A stretch of DNA of 56,575 nucleotides from a virus: positions 1-56,575 of the IMG/VR virus record IMGVR_UViG_3300050821_005734; one strand, written 5' to 3'. A program made the translations under genes and the position numbers. The notes below the pieces were generated by a model that worked only from the letters and a program-made list of their open reading frames with translations, ran no database searches and was not told the origin of the DNA. Positions 284 to 56,575 of the stretch are shown here, piece by piece (the stretch's first letter is position 1; each line of letters opens with the position of its first letter).

Positions 284-1198
284 TCAGGTGGTCGGGTCGG
301 GTCGTGTGGCGATGGCGGCGGCCCGGACGATGACGAGGCGCAGCGGCGGGTCGTGGATGCCGAGGGTGGCGAGGGAGGCGAGGGCTTGGTCCCGGAATCC
401 CATGCCGAAGTCGGGGAGTTCGCGCAGGGTCGAGCGTGCGGCGGCGTATTCGTCGTCGGTGACGGTGATCGTCTCGGCTAACACCACTTCGTGATCGTTT
501 TTGGTCGCCGTCGGGGCATCAGGTGAGGTACTCGCCTGAGGTGACCCAGCGGGTTTTATTGGGTGGTCATGGTTGGTTTGGTTGGTGGGAGGAACCCCGG
601 TTCCGGTAACCGTGCTTAGTGGTTCCGGTAAGTCAGAACCGGGGTTCCGGTAAGCGTCCGCTAACCAATCCTGATTAGAGGAACCCCCGTTCCGGTAAGT
701 CGCGTCATCCACAGGAACCGTCGTTCCGGTAACCGTGTTATCCACAGGAACCCCGGTTCCGGTAAGGTCCTCGCTTTCCGGCACCGGGGTTCCGGTAACG
801 TCCTCGCCCACGGCCGGGTCCGCGGCCTTCTTCGCCCGCTTCCGAACCGGCCGCACCGGCGTCAGACGGTTCCCGTCCGGATCGAACCGCATCGGCACCG
901 GCTCGTGGCCCGCGCCCGGACACGTCAGCTGGTACTTGTCCGCGCGCCCGCGCACGGCAGTTCCGCGGTTCACGCGCTCGATCAGGCCGGCATTCCGGAG
1001 GATCTCCATGTGCTCGCGGACGCAGCGCGTCGTCAGGTCGAGCTCGCCGGCCGCGCGCTCCTCGCCTGGGCGCACCTGGCTGCCGTCCTGATCCGCGAAG
1101 ATCGCGAGGTACACGGCGATTCCCTTCGTGGTGAATGACAGTTCGGACCGGCGGATGATGCGGAGCCAGTCGTCCTTGTCCATCGGTTCGTGGTCCAT
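284..1198 (-). CDS. Winged-helix replication initiator-like protein
   Basis: A 304-residue protein. Residues of about 10-100 resemble a winged helix of phage/plasmid initiators: a conserved opening (WLRIIRRSELSFTTKGIAVYL), then a recognition-helix-like part and a wing ending near DKYQL. The middle (about 125-225) is proline/threonine rich with recurring TGTGVP peptides, because the DNA beneath is an iteron array. It is the last gene but one of the leftward early operon. An initiator that binds iterons inside its own gene is the lambda O arrangement. The role in replication is inferred from fold and iterons. A transcription factor is the alternative. The start at 1198 has no clear ribosome site, and an in-frame ATG five codons later is possible. 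Confidence 0.65.
   Translation of the reverse strand: MDHEPMDKDDWLRIIRRSELSFTTKGIAVYLAIFADQDGSQVRPGEERAAGELDLTTRCVREHMEILRNAGLIERVNRGTAVRGRADKYQLTCPGAGHEPVPMRFDPDGNRLTPVRPVRKRAKKAADPAVGEDVTGTPVPESEDLTGTGVPVDNTVTGTTVPVDDATYRNGGSSNQDWLADAYRNPGSDLPEPLSTVTGTGVPPTNQTNHDHPIKPAGSPQASTSPDAPTATKNDHEVVLAETITVTDDEYAAARSTLRELPDFGMGFRDQALASLATLGIHDPPLRLVIVRAAAIATRPDPTT
545..800. other. Candidate replication origin (iterons plus DnaA boxes)
   Basis: Seven exact TTCCGGTAA copies begin at 601, 623, 645, 690, 724, 757 and 790. Spacings of 22, 22, 45, 34, 33 and 33 bp are close to whole helical turns. Most copies extend left to GGAACC-N2/3-GTTCC, an inverted repeat. A perfect DnaA box TTATCCACA is at 738-746 and a one-mismatch box TCATCCACA at 705-713. 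Flanks at 550-590 and 660-680 are less GC rich than the genome. The array lies inside the putative initiator gene. Confidence 0.7.
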
Positions 1199-3812: not shown

Positions 3813-4123
3813 GCGGCACCGTCCGGGGTGGCGCCGGTCGCGCGCTGTGTCAACTGCCAGTACCCGTCGTACTCGACCTCTGGGCAATGAATGCTGGTGT
3901 CGTGGTAGGTCAGCGTCATCGGGATCTCGTCGGAGCTGACCAGCTCCGGGTCGTCCAGGAACTCCAGGGATCGGCGGCAGCCCGCGCAGATGATGTCGAT
4001 CGAGCCCGCGTCGATGGACAGCAGCACGGGCTGTCCGCTGCCTGCGGCCGGGCAGTTGCAGCTGTCGTTGTAGGTGGTGGGATTCCCGGGTGCCGGGTCG
4101 TTGACGAGCTCGAAGGCGCTCAT
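3809..4123 (-). CDS. Zinc-binding-type small protein, 104 aa
   Basis: ATG at 4121-4123 overlaps the recT-like stop. Cysteines occur as CNCP near residue 20 and CAGC near residue 48, a plausible single zinc site. The rest is acidic. It directly follows the recombination gene, so an accessory role in DNA metabolism is possible but not shown. Confidence 0.65.
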   Translation of the reverse strand: MSAFELVNDPAPGNPTTYNDSCNCPAAGSGQPVLLSIDAGSIDIICAGCRRSLEFLDDPELVSSDEIPMTLTYHDTSIHCPEVEYDGYWQLTQRATGATPDGAA

Positions 4124-5406
4124 GCGGGCACCGCTTCTCGGGCTTCGCGGATCTGCGCGGCGTGCTCGGCGTCGGTGAGCGCGCCGTTGCCCTTCGCCGT
4201 CCACGCGGCCTCGGTGACGTCGGCCAGGGCGTCGCTGGTCGGCGCGGTCTTGATGCGGTCGGATAGGAGCGCGAACGGCGTCGGGTCGGGCTGGCGCGGG
4301 ATCTCGCCCGTGTTCAGCGCGTCGATCACCCTGTGCGCCTCGGCCTTCGTCAGGTGCTCGGAAGACTCCAACGGATGTCCGATGATGCGGGCGGCGAACG
4401 CGAGCTTGTCGGCCCGGTCGGTGATGCCCTTCTCGCCGAACGTGGCATGCAACATCGTCATCTGCGGCCGGGTGATGCCGGGGTTGTCCGGCGTGAAGCG
4501 GTCCGTCGCCTTCGGGGACTGCTTGGCCTCCTGCTCGGCGCGCAGCGTGGCCAGGATCGTCTCAGCCTCGGCGGCAGTGATCTGCGAAGGGTGAGTGATC
4601 TCGCGGCCGACCATGGCGCAGACAGCGGCGGCCTTGGCAACGGAATCGGTGATGCCGCGCACCACAGTCAAGCCGCCAAGGATGTCCGCGAACTGCTCAC
4701 TGGAGGCGGACGGGGGTACAGGGGTCGTCCACTCGTCCTCGACACGCCCCTGTTGACGCTGCGCCGGACGGTCAGGCGTCTCAGCGTCGCGGTCCTGCTG
4801 CTGCGCCAGGCGCTGCGGCTCGTCCGCCGTCGCGGACTGGGCCATTTCGTCGTTGGTGTAGATCCCGCTCAGCTTGGCCGGGTAGGCCTTGCGCAGCGCA
4901 AGCGCCTCCGCAACCTTGCCGATCATCAGGGACGGCATCTTGTCCCACATGAACGTGGCGCCGCCGGCGGGGCGGTACTCGCGCAGGATTGCGGTCCCCC
5001 AGATCGGCTCCCGGTATCCGTCGACGTAGACGCCGACGCGGGCGGCATACGGCCAGTCTTTCTCCGGCGCGACCCAGATGTCGCGCCACTGCCCGTCGGT
5101 ACCGCACCACTGGACTGCGGTCTGTCCGCGATACGTCGGCTGCGTCGCGGCGACGACACGGAAGCCGTCGATGTAGGTCTCGATGCCGAAGCTGATGATG
5201 CGGCCTTGCTTGTCCTTCTTCGCCTGGATGTAGATGTGGCGGGCGAAGGGGTCGAGGCCGGTACGAACCATCTCGCGGAACAGCAGCGCGCGGGCGCCGC
5301 GATCGGGGGCGGCCCCGAGTGCGTCGAGCATGGCGTGTTCGGCCGCGGTGAACTCGGTCGCACGCGTCGGTGCGACCTGCTCCTCGGCGGGGACGGTCTC
5401 GTTCAT
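4120..5406 (-). CDS. recT: RecT/Bet-family single-strand annealing protein, 428 aa
   Basis: ATG at 5404-5406 overlaps the preceding stop. Residues of about 20-200 match phage recombination protein Bet: GLDPFARHIYIQAKK, FGIETYIDGFRVVA, the PYAARVGVY stretch and MIGKVAEALALRKAYP. The remaining 220 residues are a Gln/Pro-rich linker and a helical C-terminal region, longer than lambda Bet (261 residues). Bet proteins anneal complementary single strands exposed by an exonuclease. No YqaJ or RecE exonuclease is recognisable in the window. Part of the leftward early operon. Confidence 0.9.
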   Translation of the reverse strand: MNETVPAEEQVAPTRATEFTAAEHAMLDALGAAPDRGARALLFREMVRTGLDPFARHIYIQAKKDKQGRIISFGIETYIDGFRVVAATQPTYRGQTAVQWCGTDGQWRDIWVAPEKDWPYAARVGVYVDGYREPIWGTAILREYRPAGGATFMWDKMPSLMIGKVAEALALRKAYPAKLSGIYTNDEMAQSATADEPQRLAQQQDRDAETPDRPAQRQQGRVEDEWTTPVPPSASSEQFADILGGLTVVRGITDSVAKAAAVCAMVGREITHPSQITAAEAETILATLRAEQEAKQSPKATDRFTPDNPGITRPQMTMLHATFGEKGITDRADKLAFAARIIGHPLESSEHLTKAEAHRVIDALNTGEIPRQPDPTPFALLSDRIKTAPTSDALADVTEAAWTAKGNGALTDAEHAAQIREAREAVPA

Positions 5407-9071: not shown

Positions 9072-9977
9072 CTACACGTCCCCGATCCCCAGGCGCCTGG
9101 ACTCGTCCAGCGCCCGCTGCCCCGCCCTGGCGTTCGTGTACCGGCGCACCATCGCCGGATCGACCCAGCCGGCCACCGCCATCAGCCCGGACTCCGAGCC
9201 GCCGGCGTCCAGCCACCGGTCGGACATCGTCCGCCGGAGCCGGTGCGGGTGGAAGCCGTCCACCCCGGCCGCCTTGGCGCGCTTGCCGAGGGCCTTCCAC
9301 ATCGCGCTGTAGGTGAATCCCTCGGTCGGCGCGTTCTGCCGGGCTGACAGCCACAGCCTCGGCTCGGCGGCGAGGGGGTGCTGCCGGCGCATCCTGACGT
9401 ACCGGTCCAGCGACCGCGCCGTGCGGTCGCCGAAAGCCACCATGCGCTCCCTGTCGCCCTTGCCGAGCAGTTTCGCCTCGCCCTTGCCGATGTTCAGGTC
9501 TGCGATCGGCAGGCTCACCGCCTCCTCGGCGCGCGCGCCGGTGTCCAGCAGGAACCTCATGATCGCCTCGTCGCGGCGGTCCATGAACCGCTTGCCGTCG
9601 CAGGCCTTCAGCAGAGCCTTGAGGTCGTCCTCGGAGAACGGCGGCAGCACCTTCTCGGACAGCTTGGGCGGCGAGATGCCGGCGACCTCGTTCGAGGGGA
9701 TCTCTTCCTCCTCCGCGGCCCATCGGGCGAAGGACTTCAGCGCCACCAGGTAGGCGCGCGCCGTCGTGGCTTCCCCGCGCTCCAGGGTGTCGGCCAGGAA
9801 TTCCTTCACCGTGGGCTTGTCCAGCGCCGGCGGCCGGCCGTTGGCCGCGCACCACGCGGCGAACGCGAGAAGGTTCTTGCTGTAGGTCTTCAGGGTCCCC
9901 GCGGTCTTGTGCTCGGCCCTCAGGTGGATCTGCCAGGACGGCAGGAGCACGCCCGGATCAGGCCACGATGTCGCCAT
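9072..9977 (-). CDS. int: Tyrosine site-specific recombinase (integrase), 301 aa
   Basis: ATG at 9975-9977 behind GAGGAGGAG. Residues 10-95 are a SAM-like core-binding domain. Residues 110-295 are the catalytic domain with Arg149 (DTGARAEE), Lys173, His245-xx-Arg248 (HPHRLRRT), Trp271 and the nucleophile Tyr280 (VRRYTNAR). It is XerC/D-like in length, with no long N-terminal arm-binding extension. It should recombine attP with the host attB. It is transcribed leftwards towards the repressor and followed by a shared terminator. Confidence 0.93.
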   Translation of the reverse strand: MATSWPDPGVLLPSWQIHLRAEHKTAGTLKTYSKNLLAFAAWCAANGRPPALDKPTVKEFLADTLERGEATTARAYLVALKSFARWAAEEEEIPSNEVAGISPPKLSEKVLPPFSEDDLKALLKACDGKRFMDRRDEAIMRFLLDTGARAEEAVSLPIADLNIGKGEAKLLGKGDRERMVAFGDRTARSLDRYVRMRRQHPLAAEPRLWLSARQNAPTEGFTYSAMWKALGKRAKAAGVDGFHPHRLRRTMSDRWLDAGGSESGLMAVAGWVDPAMVRRYTNARAGQRALDESRRLGIGDV

Positions 9978-11044: not shown

Positions 11045-11824
11045 TCAACGCCTCGGCGGAATCGGCACCACATACCGCAGCCGATAGCGGTCGCCAGGCA
11101 GCACCGAGGCAAGCACCTCCAACACCTCACCGGAGATGTCGTACGTGGTCCGCAGCACGTATGCCACCGACACGCCCTCCGGGATACACAGCAGCTCCGC
11201 CTCATCCGGCAGCGGCGGACGCGGTATGACGATCTCGTCCATCGAGGCGATCGACCGGCGGAACGGCCCGTCGGGATCCTCCAACAGTCGCGACACGCCG
11301 CCCCGGATGAGCCTGCGCTCGGCCAGCGGCGTCCCCGCGGCCAGCCCCTGGCGGAAGTAGCAGGTCATCGTCTTCATCGGCTTGCCGTCGACCCGGTGCA
11401 GCTGCGCCCTCTCGACGACCACCGTCCCGGCCGGAACGCCCAGGAGTTCCGCCACCTCCCGCGGTGCCAGGACGTCGCCGACGCGCAGCAGCTCGTTACG
11501 GCCCTGATGCCCCTGCAGCGCGGCCTCCGCGACGTCGTTCGCCGCCGCCGACCTCCGCTGCCGGTTGCGGAAGTTCTCCCCGGTCGCCGTGTGCGTCAGA
11601 GTCGGTGCCATCCGCACCCGGGCCTGCGCACCCTGCGACGTGACGATCAGCCCCTCGCCGCGCAGCAACTCCAAGGCCTTCGCGGCAGTCGCACGGGCGT
11701 GGCCGGTCGCCCGGGCCAGGTCGTTGGCCGACGGCAGCACCGCGCCGGGACCGAGCTCCCCGCTGAGGATGCGGTCGCGCAGGCTCGTCGCGATCTGCCG
11801 ATACGGCTGGACGGTCGACGTCAT
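11045..11824 (-). CDS. GntR family, HutC-subfamily transcription regulator, 259 aa
   Basis: Starts at ATG 11822-11824. Residues 1-75 are the GntR winged helix (YRQIATSLRDRILSGELGPG, then LPSANDLARATGHARATA). Residues of about 100-255 are a UTRA ligand-binding domain, with EVAELLGVPAGTVVVER and RTTYDISGEVLEV. This subfamily binds small effectors. The gene lies 9 bp downstream of the PPOX enzyme and is co-transcribed with it, so it probably autoregulates the unit. It is a cellular-type gene, unusual inside a phage. Confidence 0.88.
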   Translation of the reverse strand: MTSTVQPYRQIATSLRDRILSGELGPGAVLPSANDLARATGHARATAAKALELLRGEGLIVTSQGAQARVRMAPTLTHTATGENFRNRQRRSAAANDVAEAALQGHQGRNELLRVGDVLAPREVAELLGVPAGTVVVERAQLHRVDGKPMKTMTCYFRQGLAAGTPLAERRLIRGGVSRLLEDPDGPFRRSIASMDEIVIPRPPLPDEAELLCIPEGVSVAYVLRTTYDISGEVLEVLASVLPGDRYRLRYVVPIPPRR

Positions 11825-11833
11825 GGGAGCACG

Positions 11834-12265
11834 CTACGCGGGCGCATCGGCGAACTGCCAACCGCTCCAGCGCTCCACCGTCACCTCGATCACCGGTCCC
11901 TGCGGGACGTCGGCGACATACTGCGGATACCGCTCCTGGAACAGCATGAGCAGCCCGGACCAGCCCTCCTCGTCGGTCAGCATCCGGGCGGAGCCGTCGG
12001 CCCGGACCCACCACAGCTTCGACCAGTCGTCGTCGTACTCATCGGCGAGCAGCGCAACGGAAGGGTTGGCCTCGATGTTGCTGATCCGCTTGAGCTTGCC
12101 CTGCCGCTTGGGCTTGGAGTCGATGGCGATGTAGACGCGGTCGGCGGAGTCAACAACGTAGGTCACCGGCACGATGTGCGGTCGGCCGTCCGCGTCGGCC
12201 GTCGCCAGCTGGGCTCGGCGAGCCGCGGTGAAGCGGTCCCGGCAGTCATCCTGATCGAGATTCAT
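11834..12265 (-). CDS. PPOX-class (F420-dependent type) oxidoreductase, 143 aa
   Basis: ATG at 12263-12265, set by GGAGG five bases upstream. An ATG four codons earlier lacks one. The split-barrel flavin/F420 fold is seen in FTAARRAQLATADADGRPH, VPVTYVVD, IAIDSKPKR and the closing VERWSGWQFA. It resembles the TIGR03668 group of actinobacteria, which use F420 or FMN. The substrate is unknown. It heads the unit with the HutC regulator and is divergent from the lipoprotein gene. A metabolic lysogenic-conversion gene is the best reading. Confidence 0.82.
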   Translation of the reverse strand: MNLDQDDCRDRFTAARRAQLATADADGRPHIVPVTYVVDSADRVYIAIDSKPKRQGKLKRISNIEANPSVALLADEYDDDWSKLWWVRADGSARMLTDEEGWSGLLMLFQERYPQYVADVPQGPVIEVTVERWSGWQFADAPA

Positions 12266-12355
12266 GTGCACCTCCATGGCGTTGGGGGGTTCGCGGTCAG
12301 TGTAGACGGACCTGCCTGTGCAAGCTTGTCGGACCGGGGTGATACCTCTCGGCAT

Positions 12356-42934: not shown

Positions 42935-43019
42935 CGCTGCCGTCCTCGCGGATACGGCGCCTCGCGCAAGTACTGACCGCCACCGCACGATGGCTTGGCT
43001 TTCCCCTCGCGAGAAACGT

Positions 43020-43112
43020 GGACCCGACGGGATTCGAACCCGCATCGCCGGACAGCCACCGAGGTGACCGGGCGCCGTATCGCCGTCGCTCGACCAGTTG
43101 AGCTACGGGCCC
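43020..43112 (-). tRNA. tRNA-like element, 93 nt, isotype unclear
   Basis: Acceptor stem GGGCCCG/CGGGTCC, D arm GCTC-AACTGGTC-GAGC and T arm GCGGG-TTCGAAT-CCCGT are all intact, with discriminator A and no encoded CCA. The 44 nt between D and T arms do not fold into a regular 5-bp anticodon arm. The best hairpin is GGCG-ATACGG-CGCC, then a variable-arm-like GGTCAC-CTCG-GTGGCT. If ATACGGC were the loop the anticodon would be ACG (Arg), with two mismatches in the stem. Either a long-variable-arm tRNA or a degenerate one. Confidence 0.6.
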
Positions 43113-43373: not shown

Positions 43374-43762
43374 GGCCGCCACTCGTCCTTGTAGCCGGGC
43401 AGCTCGGCGTAGGGCGCGGCGAGGTCGCGAAGGTCAGGACACGGGTCGTCTTCGTCGTACCAGGCCTGAACGCTATAGCCGACGATCTCCTTGACGCACT
43501 GATGGCCCTCGCCCGTGTGCCTGGCGAGAGTCCGCCGCTTGGCCGCGACGTCGGCGAGGGCGCGGGACGGGTCGTGGCGGGCGATGTGCTCGCCAATGGG
43601 CCATGTTTGAGCGCTGTCGGGGATCCAGCAGACGTTGTTCGTGCGGGTGCCGTCGTTGCTGACTCCATCATCGGTATCGGTCCAGGCGCGCTCGATGACG
43701 GCAGATGCAATCTGCTCGTCCTCGTCCAGCCGTGCCGTGATGAACTCGGCGATCGTGGTCAT
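43370..43762 (-). CDS. DUF6221-like protein, 130 aa
   Basis: ATG at 43760-43762 overlaps the previous stop. Typical actinobacterial DUF6221 layout: EFITARLDEDEQIAS at the start, HIARHDPSRALADVAAKRR in the middle and LAAPYAELPGYKDEWRP at the end. Found widely in Streptomyces genomes and phages. Biochemical role unknown. Confidence 0.82.
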   Translation of the reverse strand: MTTIAEFITARLDEDEQIASAVIERAWTDTDDGVSNDGTRTNNVCWIPDSAQTWPIGEHIARHDPSRALADVAAKRRTLARHTGEGHQCVKEIVGYSVQAWYDEDDPCPDLRDLAAPYAELPGYKDEWRP

Positions 43763-44646
43763 GCTGCGGTCCTTCGCTTGTCTGCTTCGATGCGTTTGCC
43801 GAGCCGTTCCCACCGTTCGCCGGTGTAGCTGGCTTCGCAGGTGTCGCAGTCGATGACGGGCGGGGTCGGGTCGGCGTCCTCCCGCATTCGCGTCCACAGC
43901 CGTCCGGTGCAGCGGATGCCGCCGGGGTATTCGATGCAGGCGGCGACGTCGATGCGCCGGGCGCGGGGAAGGTCGATCAGGGCTCGTGCTTTGCCTCGAA
44001 GTTCGGTCAGGACGCTGAGGTAGTCGTCGGCCCAGGTCTGGGCCGCGGACCAGTCGGTGTAGACCGCGAGCCACGCGGTGAGGGTCGCGGGTTCGGTGTT
44101 CGCCGGCGGTGTGGTCTTGAGCTCGGTGGCGTGTCTGCGCGCCCAGTGGTCGAGGTCGTGGCGGATCTGGGAGCGGAGTTCGGCGACGGGGTCGTTGATG
44201 GGGAGTTGCCATTCGGGTGTGCCGGTGACGTGGGCGGCTGATGTGGTGATGTGTCCGGTGAGGAATGTGGCGAGGGTGAGGTAGTCGCGAAGGAGGCCGC
44301 CGGGGCGGTAGCTGCGGGGGTCGTGCCAGGTTTCGCCGTCGCCGCAGACGATGGTGGGCGGCGTCTGGATGGCGTAGTTCGGTGCGGGTCCGATAGCGGG
44401 CCGGAAGGCTCTCGCCATGGCCCACGCGGCTGCGGCTGCGTCGCGGCTGCCGTGGATCGTGACGCCGCGGGCGGTGCGCACGCCCCAGACCGCGTCCAGC
44501 GTCGGGTCGTCGGCCGCGGACGGTCCGGTGAGGGCTTCGACGAGTGCCGCGTGGTGGCCGGCGCAGAGGCGGAGTCCGCCGAGTGCGGTGCGTGGCCGGT
44601 CGGGGTCGGTGCGGTGCGGGGCGATGCAGGTGCCTGGCGGGGTCAT
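43759..44646 (-). CDS. Conserved actinophage hypothetical protein, 295 aa
   Basis: ATG at 44644-44646 overlaps the fibre-gene stop. A start-proximal Cys/His pattern (LCAGHHAALVEAL) and a C-terminal zinc ribbon (IDCDTCEASYTGERWERLGKR) flank a helical middle with RSQIRHDLDHWARRH and WLAVYTDWSAAQTW. Similar proteins are common in actinophage early regions. Nucleic-acid binding is plausible. Confidence 0.72.
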   Translation of the reverse strand: MTPPGTCIAPHRTDPDRPRTALGGLRLCAGHHAALVEALTGPSAADDPTLDAVWGVRTARGVTIHGSRDAAAAAWAMARAFRPAIGPAPNYAIQTPPTIVCGDGETWHDPRSYRPGGLLRDYLTLATFLTGHITTSAAHVTGTPEWQLPINDPVAELRSQIRHDLDHWARRHATELKTTPPANTEPATLTAWLAVYTDWSAAQTWADDYLSVLTELRGKARALIDLPRARRIDVAACIEYPGGIRCTGRLWTRMREDADPTPPVIDCDTCEASYTGERWERLGKRIEADKRRTAA

Positions 44647-55928: not shown

Positions 55929-56575
55929 CTAGGGCTGGGCGTCCGTGGCGACGGCGGCGGGTGTCTCGGGTTCGGCGCCCGCGCAGATTTCCTCCACCAG
56001 CTCACGTAGCTGGTCGATGCTGTTGCTGCCGTTGAACAGCCGGTCGGCGGTCGACTCGTCCAGGCCGAGTACTGCGCGGGCACCGGCCGCGATGGCGACG
56101 TGCTCGCGGATGAACCGGGAACGCAGCCGCTCGGGCAGCGACGCCACCTCGACCGTGGACGCTTCGATGTTCATGCGGGCGTCGACGGTGAGGAGCGCGT
56201 GACCGGCGGCGCAGTATTTGGTGCCGCATGCGGTCTCAACGGCCCAGGTGCTCTGGTCCCACTCCTCGGGGTGGGTCTCGATGCGTGTGAGCATGTTGCG
56301 GACGGCTGCGGGCTCGGTTGTGAGCGGCACACGTTGCGTCAGGGCGCCGCCGTTGACGACGGGCTGCGCGCCGAGTGCGCGGATGGTGACGTTTGGGCCG
56401 GCGTTGATGGTCATGGGGCCGGTGGCCAGGACGTTGACGTAGTCGTGGGCTGTGACGACGATGTCCGACTCGCCCCTGGTCACGATGCGCGGCGTCGAGG
56501 AGTCCCTGGTCTCGATGCGCGGCGTCGAGGAGTCCCTGGTCTCGATGCGCGGCGTCGAGGAGTCCCTGGTCTCGA
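55929..56575 (-). CDS. SSTPRI-repeat protein, C-terminal part
   Basis: The frame enters from the right edge through three exact ETRDSSTPRI repeats and continues without a stop. Residues after the repeats are beta-type (ESDIVVTAHDYVNVLATG, INAGPNVTIRALG). A helical module follows with WAVETACGTKYCAAGHALL, a pattern found in many actinobacterial plasmid and phage proteins, then a helical end (ADRLFNGSNSIDQLRELVEE). A start codon inside the window (GTG near 56483) gives 184 residues, but the true start is at 249 across the junction. Confidence 0.8.
   Translation of the reverse strand, partial: ETRDSSTPRIETRDSSTPRIETRDSSTPRIVTRGESDIVVTAHDYVNVLATGPMTINAGPNVTIRALGAQPVVNGGALTQRVPLTTEPAAVRNMLTRIETHPEEWDQSTWAVETACGTKYCAAGHALLTVDARMNIEASTVEVASLPERLRSRFIREHVAIAAGARAVLGLDESTADRLFNGSNSIDQLRELVEEICAGAEPETPAAVATDAQP
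56484..56575. repeat. 30-bp direct repeats, right end of window
   Basis: Three identical 30-bp units plus GA. The final GA matches the first two bases of the window, so joining the ends with this 2-bp overlap restores an exact unit and keeps the frame. The true copy number may be larger than the 6-7 seen. Confidence 0.95.

Follow-up and report, generated by a model that had tools for sequence, protein, structure and literature searches.

A candidate iteron replication origin embedded in its own initiator gene in a phage genome and its actinobacterial relatives

The 56,575-nucleotide virus record IMGVR_UViG_3300050821_005734 from IMG/VR (analyzed over its whole length and referred to here as the window) carries a minus-strand open reading frame (ORF) at 284-1198 that encodes a 304-amino-acid protein with PHROG matches, and within this gene lies an array of seven short repeats. 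The array is very probably an iteron replication origin embedded in the gene of its own initiator and using the DnaA protein and replisome of the host. The repeats, their phasing, their conservation across relatives and an enrichment of DnaA boxes are present in the DNA; the protein is predicted to consist of a winged helix, a linker and a C-terminal domain, and the array is where binding, opening and replication would take place. A preliminary description, made from the sequence alone, had proposed that the initiator gene contains an origin made up of iterons and a DnaA box. That proposal is supported by close homologues whose arrays keep the same place and spacing rules with different sequences and by PHROG matches to replication families.

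The repeat TTCCGGTAA occurs in seven exact copies on the plus strand, at 601, 623, 645, 690, 724, 757 and 790 (array, 601-798), with spacings of 22, 22, 45, 34, 33 and 33 bp, just as had been described. Read on the gene strand, the full repeat is ACCGGAACnnnGGTTCC, a dyad of approximately 19 bp with spacings of 33, 33, 34, 45, 22 and 22 bp. No exact copy was found elsewhere in the 56.6-kb window, and at one mismatch or fewer there were 10 matches, compared with a mean of 3.2 and a maximum of 8 in shuffled sequences. Elsewhere in the window, no stretch of 300 bp held five copies of any 9-mer. In 5,000 synonymous shuffles, which kept both the protein and its codon usage, the motif reached at most three copies and any 9-mer at most four, against the seven observed. 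The copies lie in frames 1, 1, 1, 2, 2, 0 and 1 relative to the gene; as all three frames are used and synonymous shuffling fails to reproduce the array, selection acts on the DNA. The best period for the array was 11.15 bp, with a phase coherence (R) of 0.985 that was equalled by none of 20,000 random placements. The earlier statement that the copies lie on one face of the helix holds at this period but is only approximate, since with 10.5 bp per turn the copies would gradually make one full circuit of the helix along the array.

Including their left arms, the iterons occupy plus-strand positions 591-609 (iteron 1, with the perfect left arm GGAACCCCGGTTCCGGTAA), 613-631 (iteron 2), 635-653 (iteron 3), 680-698 (iteron 4), 714-732 (iteron 5), 747-765 (iteron 6) and 780-798 (iteron 7). 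The left arm GGAAC is perfect in four copies (591, 680, 714 and 747), has one mismatch in two (iterons 3 and 7, at 635 and 780) and is degenerate in iteron 2. The GGAACC/GTTCC symmetry previously attributed to the repeats can thus be recognized in six copies but not in the one at 623. Both arms are mostly kept in these six of seven, which is the dyad symmetry of lambda O-type origins. The array and its 3′ flank (450-740) are mostly 36 to 46% AT in 50-bp windows compared with a genome mean of 30%, with no sharp block, and could represent a weak unwinding region.

As had been proposed, the gene product begins with a predicted winged helix. In the AlphaFold model, a DNA-binding winged-helix domain spans residues 7-95 (914-1180, minus strand; predicted local distance difference test [pLDDT] mostly 70-90), followed by a predicted disordered linker at residues 96-243 (470-913, minus strand), with pLDDT values below 50 over residues 96-106, 109-112 and 114-243, and by a predicted C-terminal three-helix domain at residues 248-298 (305-457, minus strand). 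The iterons fall entirely within the part of the gene that encodes the predicted linker. The protein matched PHROG_26991, for which no function is annotated (E = 1.7e-18), and phrog_270, a replication initiation family (4.7e-9); matches to O-like PHROGs were weak (0.0093 and 0.013), with relatives reaching 1e-7 or 1e-8. A Pfam profile search with the initiator protein gave no match to phage O, RepA_N or Rep_3. Fourteen of the 15 aligned family members matched HTH_36 (PF13730) at E ≤ 0.05; the window protein itself did not. Fold searches returned generic winged helices, those of TubR among them. With the full model the RepA_N initiators (4pql, 5kbj and 4pt7) came top, and with the winged-helix domain alone they appeared only at rank 20 and below; RepA_N was dropped as the specific fold.

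A perfect DnaA box, TTATCCACA, lies at 738-746 on the plus strand, flanked as described by the iteron copies at 724 and 757 and contained in the extended form GTTATCCACAGG (737-748). A near box with one mismatch, TCATCCACA, is located exactly 33 bp away at 705-713 on the same strand and is conserved in the related metagenomic contig L159, which places a DnaA-like box in two array spacers. Within genes, TTATCCACA read as VDN is always spelled CCTGTGGATAAC, with codons that the window genome seldom uses (GAT encodes 5.9% of Asp residues and CCT 3.5% of Pro residues). At the Micromonosporaceae loci described below, exact TTATCCACA occurred eight times in 13,950 bp of array regions and not once in 95,171 bp outside them. 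The 12-mer GTTATCCACAGG was present at 18 of 330 loci (some of them overlapping copies), all of which are initiator loci except L072. The box also recurs beside unrelated iteron sequences, including the non-coding arrays L293 and L315, and in L293 it is found in both orientations.

It had been suggested that conserved iterons be sought in homologous initiator genes and that homologues with the same protein but no repeated DNA would refute an origin. All 35 distinct close-family genes, mostly from Mycobacterium prophages (which include many near-duplicates, so that locus counts overstate independence), carried an array at the same place; in a few (L024, L025 and L034) it is degenerate. The closest relatives, on metagenomic contigs L113 and L159, share 64% amino acid identity with the window protein and keep all seven copies, every spacing and both DnaA-like boxes, with 92% identity to the window in the iteron cores and 68% in the spacers between them. 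The initiator gene is the only well-conserved part of the L159/L113 contig, the rest of which shares almost nothing with the window; thus, gene and array appear to move as a cassette. Homologues in Mycobacterium phages and prophages are 29 to 32% identical, with arrays spaced at 33, 33, 33, 34 and 23 bp or 33, 33, 34 and 22 bp, and most have a Cys-rich C terminus in place of the three-helix domain. Across the close family, iteron class varies with the recognition helix (GGAAC with T[TAP]Rx[VI]R, GGACA with [ND]VRTVR and CCCGAAC with GLRAVQ), and where both half-sites can be recognized they change together between classes. Directly after the last iteron, in gene orientation, lies the element CTCCCACC (584-591, minus strand), which is conserved in two reading frames: in 31 of the 35 close-family genes, C[TG]CCCACC (or CTCTCACC) starts exactly 16 bp past the point where the last iteron begins, and a CCACC-type motif follows most of the Micromonosporaceae arrays described below.

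When the window protein alone served as the query, peptide-pattern scans of viral and genome contigs identified no relatives. Scans of viral and genome collections for the raw iteron pattern returned mostly in-frame low-complexity repeats in unrelated proteins and few initiators. Three metagenomic contigs (L107, L147 and L174) encode winged-helix proteins with out-of-frame ACCGGAAC repeats at spacings such as 24, 33 and 23 bp or 31, 22 and 23 bp; L107 and L147 match replication-initiation profiles.

Using a profile search of 301 genomes from one family centred on Actinoplanes, homologues were identified in 34. Among the Micromonosporaceae, 20 of 30 homologues had an array after the winged helix, with widely different repeat sequences. 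When the Micromonospora element CP108834 was added to these 30 loci, at least four copies of an 8-mer were found within 450 bp after the winged helix in 21 of 31, compared with 1 of 146 other segments. Across 25 arrays, 73 of 94 spacings were 22, 23, 33, 34, 44, 45 or 46 bp, where approximately 15 would be expected. The CP108834 homologue is 39% identical to the window protein and is followed by six TCTGGGGATC iterons at spacings of 46, 45, 45, 21 and 22 bp, mostly past the stop codon; the two copies of TTATCCACA beside this array are the only ones in the 50 kb read. In L293, L301, L311 and L315, all or most of the array is located outside the ORF. In L301 and L311, the iteron-like arrays (TGAGTTCC and AACGGTTA, approximately 22 bp apart) are non-coding and closely follow winged-helix ORFs. 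The sampled regions L327 and L328 are close to terminase and portal genes, indicating that at least these two are prophages. The sequence containing L293 and L294 (CP108834.1, Micromonospora sp. NBC_00855) is labelled a plasmid; with genes for terminase, phage head, RecT and integrase, it looks like a phage or phage-plasmid.

In the mechanism that we propose, the N-terminal winged helix would bind to the iterons, with a dimer probably occupying each dyad of approximately 19 bp, and the multiples of approximately 11.15 bp between repeats would allow the bound initiators to assemble into a single ordered nucleoprotein complex. The DnaA of the host may dock at TTATCCACA between the iterons and help to open the adjoining AT-richer DNA. 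The helicase, primase and polymerase of the host could then be recruited, perhaps through the C-terminal domain, and replication would presumably be of the theta type. Recruitment of the host replisome is inferred because no helicase, primase or loader was identified among the predicted genes of the window. As the origin would code for a disordered linker, its DNA would be free to vary while the protein still works, and initiator and origin would travel as one cassette.

Several observations weigh against this interpretation. No strong AT-rich block was found at the array, and the AT-richest 50-mers of the genome are located elsewhere. Cumulative GC skew, put forward earlier as a check, shows no turn at the array and proved uninformative as an origin marker. 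In the model the winged helix is generic, about equally similar to RepA_N initiators and to MarR regulators. The lack of a helicase, primase or loader among the predicted genes also counts here, although it is provisional: the calls were simple codon-score calls that missed most of the initiator gene itself, and a novel loader may exist. The DnaA box is not universal, being absent from L035, L036 and L173, and when the window gene is compared by itself with its synonymous shuffles, the presence of two boxes at one mismatch or fewer is not significant (P = 0.16); the DnaA-box claim therefore rests on the wider family. The covariation of helix and iteron is based on few independent switches, and the short homologues L295, L298 and L300 have neither linker nor repeats.

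The notion that the repeats are merely protein repeats (TGTGVPV linker units) with no function in the DNA can be set aside almost entirely. In-frame copies 33 bp (11 codons) apart do occur, as do many in-frame ACCGGAAC repeats in unrelated proteins, but the iterons are more conserved than the intervening spacers, and the explanation is refuted by the frame-shifted and non-coding copies and by the failed synonymous shuffles. It is unlikely that the array is instead an operator or silencer through which the winged-helix protein, bound within its own gene, regulates transcription. A fold as MarR-like as it is initiator-like would suit such a role, and phased dyads fit repressors too; set against this are the PHROG matches to replication-initiation families, the concentration of DnaA boxes inside arrays, and the location of the arrays, well away from where the gene starts and, in some relatives, past the gene end. 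Even less probable is that the protein binds the repeats as a centromere-like or packaging site, as in TubR-type partition. Partition systems include winged helix-turn-helix proteins with iterons, and TubR is among the fold matches, but no TubZ, ParA or ParB was found in the window gene set, which has an integrase, and the DnaA boxes would be left unexplained.

A more serious contender, though a doubtful one, overlaps with the preferred reading: the array serves as an iteron origin that makes no use of DnaA, and the TTATCCACA boxes belong to the site of the initiator itself or arise by coding coincidence. This would account for arrays that lack the box, and in the literature found, no DnaA box is reported among the elements of ori-lambda. 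This reading is harder to reconcile with the appearance of the same box beside unrelated iterons, in non-coding arrays and in both orientations.

The terminase of the window is closest to that of Actinoplanes phage phiAsp2 (58%), which suggests a Micromonosporaceae host. A tyrosine integrase and a RecT-like annealing protein are encoded at 9072-9950 and 4120-5406, respectively; this gene content is that of a temperate phage whose own recombination gene lies close to the initiator. A phrog_908 protein at 43759-44646 is unlinked to the initiator in the window; in mycobacteriophages and L327, homologues are encoded two genes downstream of the initiator, and this proximity in relatives suggests a functional link. 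A 30-bp tandem repeat is present at both record ends (1-109 and 56474-56575), which a circular or terminally redundant map would fit, and apparently lies inside a minus-strand gene for repeated RIETRDSST-like peptides. A GntR/UTRA regulator beside a pyridoxamine-oxidase-like (PNPOx) protein (11045-12277) is possible host cargo. ARAGORN reported one doubtful tRNA of undetermined type at 43018-43112.

The origins of integrating actinobacteriophages are poorly defined. There is about an even chance that these loci represent a widespread type of replicator in actinobacterial phages, a self-specific cassette that unites initiator, iterons and a box for host DnaA and whose iterons diverge rapidly with the recognition helix while spacing and box stay fixed. 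If so, the origin, including lytic origins, could be read from sequence in many prophages, among them those of Mycobacterium abscessus and the Micromonosporaceae; a code relating helix to iteron would become testable, and dependence on host DnaA would be predicted. The family also offers a natural experiment in how coding and cis-acting DNA can overlap, as the array persists out of frame or outside the gene. No description of this actinobacterial variant (embedded DnaA box, constant spacing and changing iterons) was found in the open-access literature, and its novelty is unproven.

Among known systems, P1 oriR, RK2 and pSC101 combine phased iterons with DnaA boxes, have origins outside the rep gene and use Rep_3-type initiators. 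The window shares the phased iterons with DnaA boxes and differs in having its array inside the gene and no Rep_3 match. Cluster A mycobacteriophage RepA prophage replicons have an initiator with a helix-turn-helix, and their authors suggested an origin inside repA, with no repeated motifs in the regions examined (PMC7157519); those prophages are maintained extrachromosomally, whereas the window is from an apparently integrating phage. The 319-residue Rep of pSK41 has a winged-helix N terminus, a central linker encoded by the origin and deletable from the protein, and a separate C terminus, with four Rep boxes in the middle of the gene. The window protein has the same three-part plan in its predicted model but differs from pSK41 Rep and the RepA_N proteins in its seven dyad iterons, DnaA box and C terminus and has no RepA_N Pfam match. 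In the staphylococcal plasmid pPR9, the rep region supports autonomous replication, the Rep N terminus is of the phage HTH_36 type, and this domain and the origin segment have been exchanged as a module relative to pSK41 (PMC5703833). It is thereby a direct experimental precedent for a module of the HTH_36 type, a domain matched by most aligned members of the window's family but not by the window protein; pPR9 Rep differs in its low-GC Gram-positive host and its pSK41 C-terminal domain. In lambda O, as in Shiga toxin (Stx) phages, the origin lies in the middle of the initiator gene and comprises four to six iterons, each an 18-bp inverted repeat. An array inside the initiator gene is common to lambda and the window, where it would likewise act as the origin; in the window no P-type loader or Pfam match to phage O was identified, the array and its flank are AT-richer than the genome mean with no sharp block, the winged helix is generic, a DnaA box lies between the iterons, and iteron sequence and spacing are different. 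The earlier label "lambda-like" thus holds as a way of working and not as family membership. With lambda O and pPR9 Rep, the origin within an initiator gene is already a known kind, of which the window and its relatives present a variant, distinguished by its occurrence in actinobacteria, by an embedded DnaA box and by iterons that change while their spacing stays constant.
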